From the IMG/VR virus record IMGVR_UViG_3300006175_000012, positions 1-64,000 of that record: a stretch of DNA of 64,000 nucleotides; one strand, written 5' to 3'. Below, in pieces: positions 10,596-37,892 of the stretch; the stretch's first letter is position 1, and each line of letters begins with the position of its first letter. Under the pieces are notes generated by a model. The model had not been told where the DNA came from, did no database searches, and saw only the letters and a program-made list of their open reading frames with translations. The translations under genes were made by a program, and so were the position numbers. The stretch is from a virus.

Positions 10596-10617
10596 TTTGC
10601 TGTCTGCGTGCTGTGCG

Positions 10618-10689
10618 TGCCCCCTGCGCGATTCGAACGTGCATCCCCGGCTCCGTGGGCCGGTGCTCTCTCCGTTGAGCTAAGGGGGC
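10618..10689 (-). tRNA. tRNA-like gene, anticodon position reads ACG
   Basis: On the minus strand a complete cloverleaf can be folded: acceptor GCCCCCT/AGGGGGC, D stem GCTC/GAGC, anticodon stem CCGGC/GCCGG, T stem GCACG/CGCGC with one A-C mismatch, T loop TTCGAAT, and A as discriminator. No CCA is encoded. The anticodon loop is CCACGGA, so position 34-36 is ACG (Arg) but position 33 is C instead of the near-universal U. It is either a degenerate element-borne tRNA, a remnant of an integration site, or a tRNA mimic. A tRNA search program would settle the class. Confidence 0.7.
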
Positions 10690-23029: not shown

Positions 23030-23806
23030 GTGACCGACTCGACAAGCCTCGGCGATCGCATGAAAGCCTACGAGGCGCCCTGGAAACTTACCTTCCCCCG
23101 CCGCCTGCCGCTCGTGATCCGGGTCGACGGCCGGGCGTTCCACAGCTACCTGCGCGGCGCCGCGAAACCGTTCGACATGCCGTTCGTCGAGGACATGGCC
23201 GAAGTCGCCAAGACGCTGTGCGCTGAGATCTCCGGCGCGGTGTTCGCCTACCATCAGAGCGACGAGATCAGCGTCCTCGTGCAGGACTGGGCGTCCACCA
23301 CCACCGAACCCTGGTTCGCAGGCGAACTCCAGAAGATCGTGTCGATCTCCGCCGCCATCGCCACCAGCGCCCTGACTTCACGCCGAGGCGGCCGACCCCT
23401 GTTCGACGCCCGCGCATTCGTGCTGCCCAACCCCGTCGAAGTCGCCAACTACTACCAATGGCGGCAGCGCGACGCCGTGCGCAACTCGATCAGCATGGCC
23501 GCGCAGGCACACTTCAGCCACAAACGGCTACAGGGCGTCAGCGGCGAGCAGATGCAGGAATGGCTGTTCCAGGAGAAGGGCGTGAACTGGAACGACTACC
23601 CCGCCGAGTGTCGACGCGGGCAGGTCGCGGTGAAACGCTCGGGGGAGCGCGAAGTCACCTACACCGACAAGCGGACGAAAACCGAGTGCACGACGCTCGC
23701 GCTGCGCTCGTGGTGGGACGTGGAGCCCGCACCCCGGTTCACCGCGGAGCCGGGCGGGTTCCTCGCCGAGACTATCCCGAGCATGCCCGCGCTGGCCGCC
23801 GCATGA
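23030..23806 (+). CDS. thg1: Thg1-like tRNA guanylyltransferase/RNA 3'-5' polymerase
   Basis: 258 residues, GTG at 23030 with GGAGGAACCT directly upstream. Catalytic motifs of the Thg1 family are visible: RVDGRAFH (31-38, aspartate 33) and YHQSDEISVLV (74-84, SDE at 77-79), plus FSHKRLQG and the conserved PxxxxNYYQWRQRDAVRNS region. Thg1-like proteins add nucleotides 3'-5' to tRNA(His) or repair truncated tRNAs. Here it is the first gene of a coupled operon with RlaP- and PNK-like proteins, so repair is more likely than host tRNA(His) maturation. Confidence 0.9.
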   Translation: MTDSTSLGDRMKAYEAPWKLTFPRRLPLVIRVDGRAFHSYLRGAAKPFDMPFVEDMAEVAKTLCAEISGAVFAYHQSDEISVLVQDWASTTTEPWFAGELQKIVSISAAIATSALTSRRGGRPLFDARAFVLPNPVEVANYYQWRQRDAVRNSISMAAQAHFSHKRLQGVSGEQMQEWLFQEKGVNWNDYPAECRRGQVAVKRSGEREVTYTDKRTKTECTTLALRSWWDVEPAPRFTAEPGGFLAETIPSMPALAAA

Positions 23807-23826
23807 CCGCATCCGAGGAGTCCGAC

Positions 23827-24519
23827 ATGCGTATCCTGCTGGCCGGCGTCGTCGGAAGCACGGCCTACGGCCTGGCCGGCCCCGACTCGGACATCGACCG
23901 GCTCGGCGTGTTCACCTGGCCCACCACCCGGTACATGGGCCTGACCCCACCCACCGACTCCATCGTCACCACCAAACCCGACGTCACCTACCACGAAGCC
24001 GCCAAAGCCTGCCGCCTGATCCTCGGCGGCAACCCCACTGCGACCGAACTGCTGTGGCTCGAAACCTGGGAGATCAAAACACCGCTCGGCGACGAACTGG
24101 TCGGACTGCGCTCCGCGTTCCTCTCCGCCAAACGCACCCGCGACGCCTACCTCGGGTACGCCACCCAGCAGTTCCGCAAGCTCCTGTCCCGCGACGGCAA
24201 ATCCTTCGGCTCCGACATTCCCGAGCGGCGCACCGCCAAGCACGCACGCCACCTGATGCGCCTGTGCGACCAGGGCTACGAGCTGTACACCACCGGGCGC
24301 CTGCGCATCCGCCTCACGGACCCGCAACGCTACCTCGACTTCGGCGAACAGGTCGCCGCCGACCCGCAGTCCGTGATCCCGTTCATGGCCGCCGCCGAAC
24401 AGCGGTTCAACGACGCCAAGACGGTCCTGCCCGACGAGCCCCAGACCAGTGTCGTCGAGGGCTGGCTGCACCGGGTACGCCGCGCCTACTACGAGAGCGA
24501 TGGGGAGCCGCGCCGATGA
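23827..24519 (+). CDS. RlaP-like nucleotidyltransferase
   Basis: 230 residues. ATG at 23827 has GAGGAG 7 nt upstream; an ATG at 23803 overlaps the thg1 stop and is the alternative. GSTAYGLAGPDSDIDRLGVF is the Pol-beta-type GS...DxD core, followed by VTYHEAAKACRLILGGNPTA, ELLWLETWE and a C-terminal helical part. This order matches RlaP, described as an RNA-ligase-associated nucleotidyltransferase of RNA repair systems. It would act on RNA ends with its neighbours. Confidence 0.75.
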   Translation: MRILLAGVVGSTAYGLAGPDSDIDRLGVFTWPTTRYMGLTPPTDSIVTTKPDVTYHEAAKACRLILGGNPTATELLWLETWEIKTPLGDELVGLRSAFLSAKRTRDAYLGYATQQFRKLLSRDGKSFGSDIPERRTAKHARHLMRLCDQGYELYTTGRLRIRLTDPQRYLDFGEQVAADPQSVIPFMAAAEQRFNDAKTVLPDEPQTSVVEGWLHRVRRAYYESDGEPRR

Positions 24520-25019
24520 AACCCGAGGCGATCATCGCGGACATGGACGGCACACTGTGCGACGTGAGCGGCATCCGCCACCTGCTGCTCGGCCCCGGCA
24601 GCTACGACGCGTTCCACCGCGCGAGCATCGACTGCCCCCCACACCAATGGGTCGTCGACGCCGTCACAGCCGAACACGCCGCCGGGCGCGCCGTCCTGGT
24701 CGTCACCGCCCGCTCGGCCCGCTACCGCGACATCACCGCGATGTGGCTCGCCCTGCACGGCGTCCCCTCGGCGTCGATGTTCATGCGCGCCGACAAGGAC
24801 AGCCGCCCGGACCGCGAGGTGAAAGCCGAGATCCTGGCGAAGATCCGGCAGCGGTGGACGGTCGTGCACGCGTGGGACGACCGGCCGGAGATCGTCGAGT
24901 TATGGGAATCCGAAGGGATCCCGGTCACGGTCGTTCCCGGCTGGGTCGAGACGGTGTCGTTTCCGCCCGACTCGCCCGCGGCTGCCAGTATCGACGCGAC
25001 ACCCCGGAGGAACCCGTGA
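24516..25019 (+). CDS. HAD phosphatase of the polynucleotide-kinase 3' phosphatase type
   Basis: 167 residues, ATG overlapping the upstream stop. Motif I DMDGTL (9-14), motif II VLVVTARS, and VVHAWDDRPEIVELW matching the HAD motif IV region of phage PNK C-terminal domains. No P-loop kinase half is present. It likely removes 3' or 2',3'-cyclic phosphates from broken RNA. Coupled with RlaP and Thg1 in one transcript. Confidence 0.75.
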   Translation: MKPEAIIADMDGTLCDVSGIRHLLLGPGSYDAFHRASIDCPPHQWVVDAVTAEHAAGRAVLVVTARSARYRDITAMWLALHGVPSASMFMRADKDSRPDREVKAEILAKIRQRWTVVHAWDDRPEIVELWESEGIPVTVVPGWVETVSFPPDSPAAASIDATPRRNP

Positions 25020-25402
25020 ACGACACCGAACCCCGCGACTTCCCGCTATCCGACATCCTGTCCGTCACCACCGGCCGGCTCCTGTCCCGCGACGGCATCG
25101 ACGGGGTGTACCGAATCCTGTCCCACCTCACCGGCGACCAGATCATGATCGAGCCGCAGATCCCGCGCGCCCTCGACGCCTGCCAACCGCAAGTGCTCGC
25201 GCAGCATCCGCAGCTGCTCGGCGTCACCCCGCGCACGAACGCCGAGATCGAGCACATCGGCACGTGGCTCGACGAGCAGGAGACCCGGTTCGGGGCGTCG
25301 CTCCCGGTCGCCCCGATCGACGGCTGGGAGCGACGCAACCCGATCGTGGAGCTCGCCGAGAGACTCGGGCCGGAGCGCGTCGTTCCGGTTGTGCTGCCGT
25401 GA
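25016..25402 (+). CDS. DUF7736-like small phage protein (128 aa)
   Basis: GTG at 25016, GTGA overlap with the HAD gene and CGGAGGAACCC upstream. FPLSDILSVTTGRLLSRDGI, YRILSHLTGDQIM and CQPQVLAQHPQLLGV are the features of a family I know from many actinophages. No enzymatic motif. Conserved company with the RNA-repair genes may be incidental. Confidence 0.6.
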   Translation: MNDTEPRDFPLSDILSVTTGRLLSRDGIDGVYRILSHLTGDQIMIEPQIPRALDACQPQVLAQHPQLLGVTPRTNAEIEHIGTWLDEQETRFGASLPVAPIDGWERRNPIVELAERLGPERVVPVVLP

Positions 25403-25551
25403 CCGCCGCAGGGAATCCGCCGCGCTGCGAGACCTGCGGCAAACGCGTCCGGCCCTGGCAGCGCTATGACGGCGTCGGACCGCTCGGCTTCACCCGCAGG
25501 ACCGCCGCCATGCTCTGGCACTCGAAGTGCGGCCTGGAGCGCCCCGCGTGA
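25399..25551 (+). CDS. Small zinc-ribbon protein (50 aa)
   Basis: GTG overlaps the upstream stop. CETCGKRV and later WHSKCGLE form a likely zinc site. Confidence 0.5.
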   Translation: MTAAGNPPRCETCGKRVRPWQRYDGVGPLGFTRRTAAMLWHSKCGLERPA

Positions 25552-25802
25552 CCGGCACGCACGTGATCTCCGTGCGCGTCCCCGCCGACCTCGCGACGGC
25601 CGCCAACAACCACGCCGAGCGCACCGGGCGGCGCCTGTCCGACGTCGTGCGCGACGCCCTGGCCGCGCACCTCGCGCCTACCGCCGTGACCCTCACCGTC
25701 ACCTGCGGCGACCGCATCCGGGCCGAGCCACACACCGGGCGCCCGCTCACCTGCAACAGCAACCCGATCGTGCCCGAGACCCTGCACCTGGTCCTGCCGT
25801 GA
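25548..25802 (+). CDS. Ribbon-helix-helix protein (84 aa)
   Basis: GTG at 25548. HVISVRVPADLATAANNHAE and RTGRRLSDVVRDALAAHLA follow the RHH pattern: a short strand for the DNA major groove and two helices. It is the last gene of the RNA-repair operon and may regulate it. Confidence 0.65.
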   Translation: MTGTHVISVRVPADLATAANNHAERTGRRLSDVVRDALAAHLAPTAVTLTVTCGDRIRAEPHTGRPLTCNSNPIVPETLHLVLP

Positions 25803-27808: not shown

Positions 27809-28420
27809 TCACGCGGCGTGCGGGTTGAGCGCGCGGAACGCGGCGGCGAACCCCGGATCCGGGGCCAGCGCCTCATTGTGCCGATACCGGCCGCTGTCCG
27901 GATCCAGATACCCCCAGTCACCGGGCTGCCCGTGCCCGCACACCATCAGCGTCCACGTCTCACCCGGATCCAGGATCTCGACCACCTCGTGGAACACGGC
28001 GTGCCCGAGTTCGTTGCGGCCACCCGCGGCATGCACGCACCTCTCATGCCCCACACCCCCGCGCCCCGACCGGTAGCGCTCCTCCGTGTAGCCGCCGCGC
28101 AGGATCGTCGAACGCATCACCGTCCACCGGTGGTTGTGCGGAACCGGGCGCTGCCCGGCCCGCCGGTCCGGCAGGAACCACCGGTTGACTTTCACCGTCT
28201 CGTCCGGGGTGCTGGCGAGAATCAACTCCACCTTGGAGATACGGCCCTGGTTGTCGGGGATCGCGAACACGCCGCCGCCGGGATGCGTGAACTGCTCCCA
28301 GGTCAAGCCCGGCAGCAGGTTCGGAGCCTGGCCCTCGAGGGTGTCGCGCACCTGCTCGTAAACGTCCGCAGTGACGCGCTGGCCGGGCATCACCTCGAAC
28401 GGCGCCGTGGCAGCCGTCAT
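27809..28420 (-). CDS. Cupin-like protein (203 aa)
   Basis: ATG at 28420 overlaps the upstream stop. VPHNHRWTVMRSTILRGGYT, HAVFHEVVEILDPGETWTLM and VCGHG have the paired histidines and beta spacing of a cupin. The N-terminus carries FTHPGGGVFAIPDNQGRISK. A metal-binding small-molecule enzyme or sensor is possible; the substrate is unknown. Confidence 0.55.
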   Translation of the reverse strand: MTAATAPFEVMPGQRVTADVYEQVRDTLEGQAPNLLPGLTWEQFTHPGGGVFAIPDNQGRISKVELILASTPDETVKVNRWFLPDRRAGQRPVPHNHRWTVMRSTILRGGYTEERYRSGRGGVGHERCVHAAGGRNELGHAVFHEVVEILDPGETWTLMVCGHGQPGDWGYLDPDSGRYRHNEALAPDPGFAAAFRALNPHAA

Positions 28421-28641
28421 ATCTGGGTGCAGGGGCACACCGAGTCGCCCAGCACGTCGGTAGGGCAGTCAGCGCCCCCGCCGCGGTGGCAGCCGGTGGC
28501 CGAGCAGCAGGTGCAGTCGCCGCACTCGCCGCTGCCCGCGTCCGCGAGCGGGTCGTAGTCGGCGAGCGAGAGGCCCGTCCCGAGCGATTGGAGTACGGGT
28601 ACTCCGTCCTCGAGCTCGTAGTCGCCGTCAAGGTCGTCCAT
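28417..28641 (-). CDS. Small cysteine-rich acidic protein (74 aa)
   Basis: Acidic start (DDLDGDYELEDGVPVLQSLG) and a cysteine-rich end (CGDCTCCSATGCHRGGGADC, then CPCTQI), possibly metal-binding. Coupled to the cupin-like gene; the two are divergent from the gene at 28804 across a 30-bp palindrome. Confidence 0.5.
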   Translation of the reverse strand: MDDLDGDYELEDGVPVLQSLGTGLSLADYDPLADAGSGECGDCTCCSATGCHRGGGADCPTDVLGDSVCPCTQI

Positions 28642-28803: not shown

Positions 28804-29265
28804 GTGGGCGAGAAGGAGGGCCGCTGGGTGGACGACCCACCCCTGCCCGAGATCACACCCCTGCCCGAGCGCCTGATCGCGGTACGCGGCGCCCAACGGC
28901 TGCGCGTCAACAACCAGGACAACCCCGACCCGCGACGCCGCGGCGGCCACACCGACACCGTCGCTCTCGCCTGGGCGCGCACCCCCGACGGCGACTGGGC
29001 GGCGCTGCTCGCCTGGCTCGGCGCGTGGCAGCAGGGCGGGCGCACCACCGGCCGGGGACGGTTCGGGTGGTGCCGGATCCCCGAGGGCCGCGTGGAGGCG
29101 ATGCCCCCCGATCCGCTGTCGGGGGCGGCGTGGTACGGGTGGTTCGAGCCGAACGAACTCGGCGCCGCGATCCAGGCGGCCGCGCTGACGTTGCCCGAGG
29201 CCCTGCGGGCGGCCGCGCTCGACCCCCGACGCGACACTAGGCCGCCACCCGGCCCCGCACCTTGA
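28804..29265 (+). CDS. Hypothetical protein (153 aa)
   Basis: GTG at 28804 sits a few bases after TAGATT (leaderless) or, less likely, GTG 28828 after AAGGAGGG. Alpha/beta protein with LIAVRGAQRLRVNNQDNPD and WAALLAWLGAWQQGGRTTGR. The 3' end overlaps the ligase gene by 29 nt convergently. No family recognised. Confidence 0.5.
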   Translation: MGEKEGRWVDDPPLPEITPLPERLIAVRGAQRLRVNNQDNPDPRRRGGHTDTVALAWARTPDGDWAALLAWLGAWQQGGRTTGRGRFGWCRIPEGRVEAMPPDPLSGAAWYGWFEPNELGAAIQAAALTLPEALRAAALDPRRDTRPPPGPAP

Positions 29266-29860
29266 CCCACCGAAAACCCCCGTAGGCCCCACCCAGCGGC
29301 TTGACCACGACCCCCTCCACCCCGATCTGCGGCAGCACCCGCAGCCACGTCAACGCCGTCGCGCGATCCCGTGTCGCGAGGATCGTCTCGATCGGCGGCG
29401 GCACATCGGCGAGCAGCGCCGTCAAACGGCCCCAGCGCTCCTCGAGCGCGAGATCGCGCACGTCGATGCAGCCGCGCCGGGCGTCCGGGACCGCCAGGAC
29501 GTCGAACGCCACGTAACGCACCTGCACCCCCTCGCGGGCGCGCGCCGCGGCGGTGCGGGCCAGGTCGACGCGCGAGAGCCGCACGCCGCGCCAGGCGACT
29601 ATCTCCCCGTCGAGGACGGCGCCGGCCGGGAGCGCGGCGATGGCGGCTGCTAGTTGCGGGAACCGCGGCGCGAGGTCGCGCCCTGTTCTCGACTGCAGTA
29701 CGGGTCCTTCGGGCAGTGCGAAGGCGGCGCCCCTGAAGCCGTCGAGTTTCACGCTGTACTGGCAGCCGCCGGGCATCGCGTCCTCGTGCGGGAGCGTGCG
29801 CGCGGGCGCGGGCCGCATGAGCTGGACGGGTGGGCGCAGGTAGACGCGCGGGTTCGCCAT
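29237..29860 (-). CDS. Minimal ATP-dependent DNA/RNA ligase adenylation domain
   Basis: Start ATG at 29860 (MANPRVYLRPPVQLMRPAPA), 207 residues. Ligase motif I is VKLDGFRG (K, D, G, R), followed by LQSRTGRDL, LDGEIVAWRG and EGVVVKPLGGAYGG with WVKVR, i.e. the nucleotidyltransferase core up to motif V. It stops there, lacking an OB fold, unlike full-length ligases of 300 or more residues. Possibly a nick or RNA ligase helping the repair genes at 23-25 kb, about 4 kb away; that link is inference. Confidence 0.7.
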   Translation of the reverse strand: MANPRVYLRPPVQLMRPAPARTLPHEDAMPGGCQYSVKLDGFRGAAFALPEGPVLQSRTGRDLAPRFPQLAAAIAALPAGAVLDGEIVAWRGVRLSRVDLARTAAARAREGVQVRYVAFDVLAVPDARRGCIDVRDLALEERWGRLTALLADVPPPIETILATRDRATALTWLRVLPQIGVEGVVVKPLGGAYGGFRWVKVRGRVAA

Positions 29861-29967
29861 ACCGCCAGGTTCGCTCTGTTCGGGGCTTTCCGCAGGCCGG
29901 GTGGAGCGCGGGCGCGGCATTCGGTGCGGCGATGTCGAGTTGAAGTAGACAATGCGACACTTGCGCC

Positions 29968-30303
29968 ATGCCCGACGCGCCGACCCCGATCCAGATCCTC
30001 GCGACCGGCCCGGACTGGACCTGGTACTGCGACGCCACGATCGCCATACACGGCGCCGACTACTCCCGGCGACGCGGACAATGCCGATGCGGCTGGCGAA
30101 CCAGCGACGCACACTCCAGTCAGATGCAGGAACTGCTCGACCTGTGCGACCGGCATCGGACCACCAGCGCACAACGGCGCGGCGAGTACCGCCGCACCCT
30201 GCCGCCGAGTACACGCACGCCTGAGGAGATGGACGCGGAGATCAACGCGGGCCTGGACGCGATACACGCGATCATCGGCGAGATGGAGGAACGCTACGGC
30301 TGA
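29968..30303 (+). CDS. Hypothetical protein (111 aa)
   Basis: ATG at 29968, after GACAATGCGACACTTGCGCC. Reads PDWTWYCDATIAIHGADYS and CRCGWRTSDAHSSQMQ, a Cys/His pair arrangement, then charged helices. Possible zinc-binding; the family is not recognised. Confidence 0.5.
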   Translation: MPDAPTPIQILATGPDWTWYCDATIAIHGADYSRRRGQCRCGWRTSDAHSSQMQELLDLCDRHRTTSAQRRGEYRRTLPPSTRTPEEMDAEINAGLDAIHAIIGEMEERYG

Positions 30304-36230: not shown

Positions 36231-37892
36231 TCACGCCGCCCGAAGTCCGTCGAACTGAGTGGCGGCCAGCGGCGGCTGCCCATCGCCCTCGCACCCGTGC
36301 TTGCGCATGCCGCCGCTGGCCGCCACCGACCGCACCTGGCCGCAGCCCGGGCATATCCCCTTCGGGCGTCCCGTCTCGGACAGCGCCTGCCGCTCGCGCG
36401 AGTACGCGGATATCGCGTCAAGGCACGCCCGGCAGGGACTCTCGCCGAGTCGGCGATGCCGCTGGTAGCCGTAAGGCTTCCCGCACGCGTTCGATGCCGC
36501 TGCTTCCCGCGCGGCCAGCTTCGGCATCCGCTCGCGGCCGACCGTTTCCTTGAACGTCGCCCGCAGGCTCTCGATCTCGCGGGCCTGTGAGGCGATCACC
36601 CGCCGCTGTTGCTCGCACTGCCCCCGCAGATCCGCGAGTTGCACCTCTTGCGCGGCGAGGCGGCGGCGCGCGGCCGTCAACTCCCGCTCCAGCGCCCGCG
36701 CCTCGCCGCGCTGCGCGTCCTCGCGTTTCCACATCCGGCACGGCGCGCACCTCGGGATCCGTTCGCGCTTATGCCGGTTCCAGCCCTCCCGGGTGCCGCA
36801 CTCCGGCCAGCGCGGATCGTCCTTGCTCGGCGGCAGCTCCCTCGGCGCCCTGGCTTTCGCGCCGACCTTGCGCCGGTTGACCGCCGCCGCCGCCTCGTCC
36901 GTGGTCGTATCCAGGTATACGGAGGTCACCGAAATGTCCGAGTGCCCGAGGATGTGCGCGATCAGCGCGGGGTCGGCCTTCGCCTCACGGGCGAGCAGCG
37001 TGCCGGTGGTGTGGCGCAGCCCGTGCGGCACGTAGTGGCGGCCGAGCGCGGAGCGCGCGCAGCGCTCCACGATCCGGCGCACCATCGCGGCGTTGAACCG
37101 GTGCCGCTCCGGCGAGAGCAACAGTGCCTGCGCGTCGCCCTTGATCAGGTGGTGGTTCTTGTCGTACCGGTCAGGAGTGTCGCCAGGCACTGGGCGCCAT
37201 TGGTCGATGTAGTCGCGGATCAGCGTGGCGCAGGCGTCGGTGAGCGGCACCGTACGTGCCTTACGTCCCTTGCCGCGGCGGATCTGCGCCACCCAGTGCC
37301 CGGACGGCTCCGCCTCGATGTCGCCCAGGTCGAGGTTCTGCACGTCGCCGTTGCGCAGCCCGGATTCACCGGTCAGCCGGATCACGATCTCGTCGCGCAC
37401 CCACGCGCCGCGGTCGCCGTGGTAGGAGCCGTGGCCGGTACGGGCCGCAGCGATCATCGCTTCCAGTTCGGGGCGCGAGAGCGCCGCGCGTTCGGGGCCG
37501 GCTTTCTTGCGCGGCAGTGGGGGTGTCGCGACGTCGCGCATCGGGTTCTCGCGCAGCCACCGGTTGGCGTCGGCGAACGCGAACAGCCCCTTGCCCGACT
37601 TGTGGCAGTGGCGCAGCGTCGCGGGGCCCGCGCCCTTCTGGGCGTGGCTCGGCAGCCGTGCGCCTTGGACGCGGTAGTGCGCGAGCCATTCGACGATCTC
37701 GGCGGCCTCGACGCTGTCGCAGGTACGGTCGGGGCCGAGGTGGTCGACAAGGCGCCGGGAGTAGGCGAGGTAGCCGCGGGCGGACTGGGCGCTGAACGTG
37801 TCGGCGTCGACGCGGGCGAGCAGGTGTTTTTCGTAGGCGCGCCAGGCGGCGTCGAGGGTGACGGTCAGGTCGCGTTCGCGCGGGGCGGCCAT
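36231..37892 (-). CDS. Tyrosine recombinase (integrase) with cysteine-rich C-terminal extension
   Basis: ATG at 37892 in TGATG; 553 residues. N-terminal SAM-like domain 10-110, catalytic domain 140-340. Visible residues: R180 in GESGLRNGD, H290-x2-R293 in HGLRHTTG, H317 in LGHSD and Y326 in VYLD. From 340 the protein continues about 210 residues: CGTREGWNRHKRERIPRCAP..C, a charged coiled coil (400-445), CGKPYGYQRHRRLGESPCRAC and a final CPGCG pair. These repeated CG-x-GY/W-x2H...PC-x2-C modules resemble small actinophage zinc-binding proteins and are unusual on an integrase. It integrates the element; its attachment site is not evident. Confidence 0.9.
   Translation of the reverse strand: MAAPRERDLTVTLDAAWRAYEKHLLARVDADTFSAQSARGYLAYSRRLVDHLGPDRTCDSVEAAEIVEWLAHYRVQGARLPSHAQKGAGPATLRHCHKSGKGLFAFADANRWLRENPMRDVATPPLPRKKAGPERAALSRPELEAMIAAARTGHGSYHGDRGAWVRDEIVIRLTGESGLRNGDVQNLDLGDIEAEPSGHWVAQIRRGKGRKARTVPLTDACATLIRDYIDQWRPVPGDTPDRYDKNHHLIKGDAQALLLSPERHRFNAAMVRRIVERCARSALGRHYVPHGLRHTTGTLLAREAKADPALIAHILGHSDISVTSVYLDTTTDEAAAAVNRRKVGAKARAPRELPPSKDDPRWPECGTREGWNRHKRERIPRCAPCRMWKREDAQRGEARALERELTAARRRLAAQEVQLADLRGQCEQQRRVIASQAREIESLRATFKETVGRERMPKLAAREAAASNACGKPYGYQRHRRLGESPCRACLDAISAYSRERQALSETGRPKGICPGCGQVRSVAASGGMRKHGCEGDGQPPLAATQFDGLRAA

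Follow-up and report, generated by a model that had tools for sequence, protein, structure and literature searches.

A coupled Thg1-like, RlaP and predicted 3'-phosphatase gene module in a soil actinophage suggests a role in RNA-end restoration

Introduction

Why would a phage carry, in a single chain of overlapping genes, three enzymes that are all predicted to act on the ends of RNA? The genes in question encode a Thg1-like protein (TLP), the nucleotidyltransferase RlaP, whose name reflects its association with an RNA ligase within one genome, and a PNK-type HAD phosphatase. The TLP from Bacillus thuringiensis (BtTLP) prefers the repair of 5'-truncated tRNA (PMC3701042). Those TLPs from bacteria and archaea that have been examined act like BtTLP in this preference (PMC6471195). 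The repair has been observed in vitro and the natural cellular role of bacterial-type TLPs is still open (PMC3701042, PMC6471195). Linkage of Thg1 and PNK genes in bacteria was already noted in 2010 (PMC2904730), and surveys of jumbo phages propose RlaP, Thg1 and PNK-type HAD proteins as parts of counter-RNase repair (PMC7824862). A small operon that joins a TLP to a 3'-phosphatase and to a nucleotidyltransferase for 3' ends offers a defined and testable setting for the role of this protein family.

Organization of the phage operon

The window analysed here, a stretch of 64,000 nt, belongs to the 65.3 kb virus record IMGVR_UViG_3300006175_000012. A longer contig of 109.5 kb (L002) is nearly identical to this record across the operon region and carries, beyond the window, genes for terminase, portal, scaffold, head, tail and endolysin. 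The replicon is therefore a tailed phage; it is an actinophage from soil with a G+C content of 70%. A near-identity DNA search with 12 kb against the phage collection returned no match. Only one tRNA gene was detected in the phage (Arg-ACG, with the CCA not encoded), and tRNA-His is absent from the window as well as from the rest of the 109.5 kb contig.

The operon occupies positions 23030-25802 on the plus strand and consists of six consecutive genes, with a 4-nt ATGA or GTGA overlap at every junction. Their order is Thg1-like protein, RlaP, standalone HAD_PNKP phosphatase, DUF7736 protein, cysteine-rich protein of 50 amino acids and ribbon-helix-helix (RHH) protein. The original prediction of three RNA-end enzymes in one coupled unit is borne out by these overlaps and by the Pfam and PHROG identities of the proteins. 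It had also described the unit as capped by the RHH gene; this gene does end the unit, but the DUF7736 and cysteine-rich genes lying between it and the HAD gene had been overlooked.

Predicted RNA-end enzymes

The Thg1-like protein (23030-23806, plus strand, 258 aa) is a predicted 3'-5' RNA polymerase. It matches the Pfam family Thg1 at 2.8e-22 (79.5 bits against a cut-off of 29.2) and PHROG 4717, annotated as 'tRNA-His guanylyltransferase', at 1.4e-74. Among solved structures, its best match is BtTLP (4kgk, 9.2e-60), while human THG1 (3otb) is matched at 1.2e-11. The metal-ligand carboxylates D33, D78 and E79 are invariant in an alignment of relatives, and K46 aligns with the activation lysine K43 of BtTLP. 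As judged from its sequence, the protein is of the bacterial TLP type, much nearer to BtTLP than to the eukaryotic Thg1 that acts on tRNA-His, and it shares the catalytic carboxylates and the activation lysine of BtTLP (4kgk/4kgm). In contrast to BtTLP, it is phage-encoded and shares its operon with genes for RlaP and a 3'-phosphatase.

RlaP (23803-24519, plus strand, 238 aa) is a nucleotidyltransferase of the Pol-beta superfamily that matches PF10127 at 1.1e-21 (78.2 bits against a cut-off of 23). Residues G18-S19, the DxD aspartates D30/D32 and the third aspartate D60 are invariant across 62 relatives. The AlphaFold2 model built from this 62-sequence alignment has a pLDDT of 94.5 and displays a nucleotidyltransferase fold. 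At the sequence level RlaP matched none of the solved structures; those nearest to the model in fold are Hailong HalB (Z 10 over 168-170 residues, 11-13% identity) and then kanamycin nucleotidyltransferase (Z about 7). The fold common to these proteins carries no information on substrate or function.

The third gene (24516-25019, plus strand) encodes a standalone PNKP-type HAD protein of 167 amino acids, a predicted RNA 3'-phosphatase. It matches HAD_PNKP (PF25109) at 1.7e-22 and T4 Pnkp (1ltq/5uj0) at about 1e-7, and its motifs DMDGT, VTAR, VKAEIL and WDDRPE align with the catalytic motifs of the T4 Pnkp phosphatase. As regards the N-terminal kinase domain of T4-type Pnkp, no P-loop is present in the stop-to-stop frame of the gene. 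Going by the alignments, the catalytic residues are present in the Thg1-like protein, RlaP and the HAD phosphatase alike.

The association with an RNA ligase, seen in other RlaP phages, was not found here: PF09511, PF09414 and PF01139 are unmatched in the 109.5 kb contig, which may be incomplete, and profile searches of the same contig detected neither Rnl1, Rnl2 or RtcB nor a P-loop polynucleotide kinase (no AAA_33 match). The original prediction had pointed to an adenylation-domain ligase nearby. Such a domain, with a KLDGFRG motif, is indeed encoded at 29237-30085 on the minus strand (PF01068, 1.2e-13; start uncertain, at 29860 or further upstream). However, it lies outside the operon and on the opposite strand, the gene is truncated, ending after the adenylation domain with the following domain missing, and its top NCBIfam matches are DNA ligases of the LigC/LigD type. 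Being of the DNA-ligase type by both PF01068 and NCBIfam, it was rejected as the missing RNA ligase.

Gene neighbourhoods in other genomes

Scans of viral contigs yielded 78 RlaP loci and 80 Thg1 loci. The family found most often within three genes of RlaP is PNKP/HAD (25 loci), followed, besides lineage-specific unassigned genes, by Rnl1-type ligase (10 loci), CCA-adding enzyme (6) and RtcB (3); an RF-1-domain release factor and Thg1 are also found there, in 3 loci each. RlaP relatives in other phages and in actinobacteria adjoin the same kinds of partners, namely Pnkp, Rnl1-type ligase, RtcB, CCA-adding enzyme and release factor. Examples are an RNA ligase two genes from RlaP in Gordonia phage Mollymur and a polynucleotide kinase two genes from RlaP in Streptomyces phage GiJojo; in Mycobacterium phage Pound, a polynucleotide kinase lies three genes from Thg1.

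In the 50 whole contigs scanned, the distance between RlaP and HAD_PNKP is no more than 2.5 kb in 22 of the 33 contigs having both, against 1.8 expected under random placement, which is a simple null for the strand-biased genes of phages. Thg1 is present in 16 of the 50 RlaP contigs, every time on the strand of RlaP, and within 6 kb of it in 6 of the 16. Leaving out the window gives 5 of 15, with 2.1 expected under the same simple null (p about 0.04). Proximity of Thg1 to RlaP is thus above chance to a modest degree, and the linkage of RlaP to HAD is far stronger by these distance counts. Thg1 as a strongly linked partner was rejected because its linkage is only modest. The distance correlations for Thg1-RlaP and for RlaP-HAD (r 0.84 and 0.57, respectively) were set aside, as they are confounded by the relatedness of the genomes.

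The complete trio recurs in two other contigs. A contig from a Catenulispora MAG (L188) carries overlapping genes for Thg1, RlaP and HAD, ordered as in the window (61, 60 and 57% identity), and a second phage contig (L031) carries them in another order, RlaP-HAD-x-Thg1 (61, 61 and 67% identity). Across 10-13 kb, these two loci hold no further match to proteins of the window, save a generic GntR regulator in L188. That they share with the window the trio and nearly nothing else is the best indication of the first three genes moving together as a module. Together with the enrichment of RlaP-HAD adjacency in other phages, this recurrence indicates that the three RNA-end enzymes are found together beyond chance. 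The gene neighbourhood is conserved for the RlaP-HAD pair and in the recurring trio, but that of Thg1 itself is only weakly conserved.

This last point leads to the alternative that only RlaP and HAD constitute the repair unit, with Thg1 as independently acquired cargo upstream and with a host kinase and ligase finishing the work. The much stronger RlaP-HAD linkage is consistent with it, as are the nearest Thg1 relatives (79-80% identity; L003 and L004), which have neither RlaP nor HAD adjoining; the L003 contig has an RlaP-HAD pair 12 kb from Thg1 and the L004 contig has neither gene. The missing activities could come from actinobacterial Rnl1-RlaP-Pnkp operons (L194 Micromonospora, L247, L256 Hamadaea), in which RlaP is likewise coupled to RNA-end healing enzymes but which, unlike the phage unit, have no Thg1 and encode an RNA ligase together with the complete kinase-phosphatase. 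However, the trio recurs in L188 with order and overlaps preserved and in L031, in surroundings that are nearly all different, and the overlap of Thg1 and RlaP is found again in two further loci. In one (L090), RlaP and Thg1 share a 4-nt overlap and are surrounded by 25 arrayed tRNA genes. In the other (L153), the genes for a CCA-adding enzyme, RlaP and Thg1 form a head-to-tail chain with overlaps. We regard Thg1 as mere cargo to be rather unlikely.

The tRNA array of L090 and the presence of some related cassettes beside CCA-adding enzymes might instead suggest housekeeping, in which Thg1 and RlaP would mature or edit the ends of tRNAs of the phage or the host (G-1 of tRNA-His, CCA) and boost translation where no damage has occurred. 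The name of the PHROG family and the phage tRNA-Arg without encoded CCA are in line with this idea. However, the phage has no detected tRNA-His in the window or the rest of the contig, its Thg1 belongs with BtTLP, for which 5'-truncated tRNAs are the preferred substrates (PMC3701042), and tRNA maturation leaves the 3'-phosphatase without a role, so that housekeeping appears very unlikely.

Genes downstream of the trio

The DUF7736 protein (25016-25402, plus strand, 128 aa; PF24875, 2.7e-17) is an overlapping member of the unit with function unassigned, and the family gave two matches only among 50,697 phage records. The small cysteine-rich protein (25399-25551, plus strand, 50 aa) contains a CxxC..C pattern and weakly matches PHROG 25163, 'DNA binding protein' (0.003). 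The RHH protein (25548-25802, plus strand, 84 aa) is CopG/Arc-like; it matches RHH_1 at 4.5e-4, just at the curated cut-off, and a PHROG of Arc-like repressors at 3.5e-7, and its gene most likely starts at 25548 and not at 25527.

None of these three genes is conserved with the trio at the L188 and L031 loci, where DUF7736 is not beside the trio in either case. Conservation of the whole operon, including DUF7736 and RHH, was thus rejected, since only the first three genes recur. The neighbourhood tests support an RNA-repair reading of the locus, as originally proposed, but this support is limited to those three genes. The RHH protein may act as a regulator of the operon.

An RHH gene in the unit could also be viewed as the antitoxin or regulator of a conflict or signalling system, in which RlaP would make an (oligo)nucleotide signal or modify a target in the manner of HalB and of NTase toxins. 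HalB and kanamycin nucleotidyltransferase being the closest structures to the RlaP model would agree with such a system, and the RHH protein has a weak match to a RelB-like antitoxin model (9e-4, 19.4 bits, below the cut-off of 50), with no toxin recognised beside it. However, the RHH gene does not accompany the trio elsewhere, the recurrent partners of RlaP are RNA-end enzymes and likeness in the Pol-beta fold does not establish function. PADLOC gave no match for any gene tested. We consider a signalling role to be highly improbable.

Proposed role in RNA repair

The trio is probably, in our view, a phage-borne module for restoring the RNA ends of damaged tRNA, and as such a form of the RNA repair known from phages that does without a ligase. 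It would act on tRNA ends during infection, following damage by tRNases, with sealing either unneeded or supplied by the host. A host ribonuclease might truncate the ends of tRNAs or of another structured RNA, or leave them blocked by phosphate. From its family, the PNKP-type HAD protein would take off the 3'-phosphate to give a 3'-OH, at which RlaP might restore the lost nucleotides, as Burroughs and Aravind predicted for the family (cited in PMC7824862). The Thg1-like protein might then rebuild a truncated 5' end in the 3'-5' direction with the opposite strand as template, this being the activity of BtTLP, its closest characterised homologue. Since the phage appears to encode neither a 5'-kinase nor an RNA ligase, the substrates might be tRNAs that are damaged at their termini and need rebuilding rather than sealing, or else sealing might be performed by host enzymes. 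The likely benefit is that translation would be kept going against the tRNases of the host or of rivals; the anti-defence role of the original prediction is a putative one. Counting against the module are the single tRNA gene detected in the phage, the modest linkage of Thg1 to RlaP and the occurrence of Thg1 in contigs that have an RNA ligase. The DUF7736, cysteine-rich and RHH genes are carried along in the same transcription unit.

RtcB needs a 3'-phosphate, which a 3'-phosphatase would destroy. Removal of this group is compatible with the restoration of ends, or else with a host ligase that seals in an ATP-dependent manner.

This kind of system is already known. As in the RlaP counter-RNase systems (Burroughs and Aravind 2016, in the accounts given via PMC7824862 and PMC6514570), RlaP lies beside a PNK-type HAD phosphatase, and those accounts already place Thg1 among the nucleotide-restoring enzymes of some jumbo phages. 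Measured against the same accounts, the present case differs in that no RNA ligase or kinase was found, that the Thg1-like protein is translationally coupled to RlaP, and that the phage, with ~110 kb sequenced, is not a jumbo phage. The heal-and-seal pair of T4, Pnkp and Rnl1, is also related, as the HAD protein is homologous to the phosphatase domain of T4 Pnkp (1ltq, 5uj0) with conserved catalytic motifs; however, the kinase domain and Rnl1/Rnl2 are lacking here and nucleotide-adding enzymes are present instead. In coupling Thg1, RlaP and HAD and having neither kinase nor ligase, the module is a variant, of which we found no description in the literature searched, where the 2016 work of Burroughs and Aravind is represented by later accounts.

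Ligases and kinases in related phages

The distribution of ligases was compared among 26 contigs in which RlaP has a HAD_PNKP gene close by. They were assigned to a kinase+phosphatase or a phosphatase-only class by reading the full frames. An RNA ligase is present in 16/16 contigs of the former class, within 5 kb of RlaP in 12 of them, and in 0/10 of the latter. The Fisher p of 3e-7 was computed for 15 versus 10, since visual inspection of the P-loop GLPACGKT brought in the sixteenth kinase+phosphatase contig (G033) only later. The two classes hardly differ in median contig size (111 and 103 kb). Within the set of 26, PF01068 is matched only in the phage studied here, G042 and G049, and this DNA-type domain in our contig and G042 represents the sole ligases of the phosphatase-only class. 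On the RlaP tree, many branches of which are weak, the class must have switched about five times, and common descent alone therefore does not account for the split.

The operon suggests that some phages repair RNA with a sealing step and others without one, a difference that would hint at distinct nucleases in their hosts. The trio might then belong to a distinct class of phage RNA repair, directed at damage of the acceptor end and not at nicks in the anticodon loop, in which both tRNA termini are restored without sealing; the 3'-phosphatase and RlaP would rebuild the 3' strand and the Thg1-like reverse polymerase the 5' strand. The complete split across the 26 RlaP contigs, in which the RNA ligase goes with the kinase form of PNKP, would mark it as a separate strategy. 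We put this forward tentatively, as a conceivable but doubtful extension of the end-restoration module proposed above. Thg1 itself occurs in both classes, in 3/10 phosphatase-only and 6/16 kinase+phosphatase contigs, and is therefore no marker of the ligase-less class.

RlaP fold and related cassettes

The nearest solved structure to the modelled fold of RlaP (23803–24519), at Z 10 and 11–13% identity, is that of Hailong HalB, a nucleotidyltransferase of anti-phage defence. RlaP and HalB may be linked by evolution.

Among the other contigs with RlaP loci, L090 carries RlaP and Thg1 genes that overlap by 4 nt and are both located within an array of 25 tRNA genes (L090:2821–12604); an Rnl1-type ligase and the kinase-phosphatase Pnkp are present about 5–6 kb upstream of RlaP on the same contig. 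This gene set is a complete kit with the addition of Thg1. In L153, a phage contig of lower G+C, the genes of a CCA-adding enzyme, RlaP and Thg1 overlap head-to-tail (L153:640–3808), forming a unit in which three end-nucleotidyltransferases are brought together. A CCA-adding enzyme is directly followed by RlaP in a third contig (L017:8577–12287), where the RNA ligase RtcB is encoded downstream of RlaP on the opposite strand; this arrangement is an RtcB-type version of the RlaP cassette.

Other genes in the window

The single tRNA gene detected in the phage, tRNA-Arg(ACG), is located at 10617–10689, and its CCA is not encoded. It may act as a decoy or supplement for cleaved host tRNA, or may be the remnant of an attachment site. 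The gene at 27809–28438 lies a short distance past the downstream end of the operon and is encoded on the other strand. Its product weakly matches cysteine dioxygenase in PHROG (1e-7) and has no match in Pfam. A phage integrase is present at 36231–37892; its longer, upstream-open frame reaches 38264 and has PHROG matches to WhiB-like regulators, which may be spurious.
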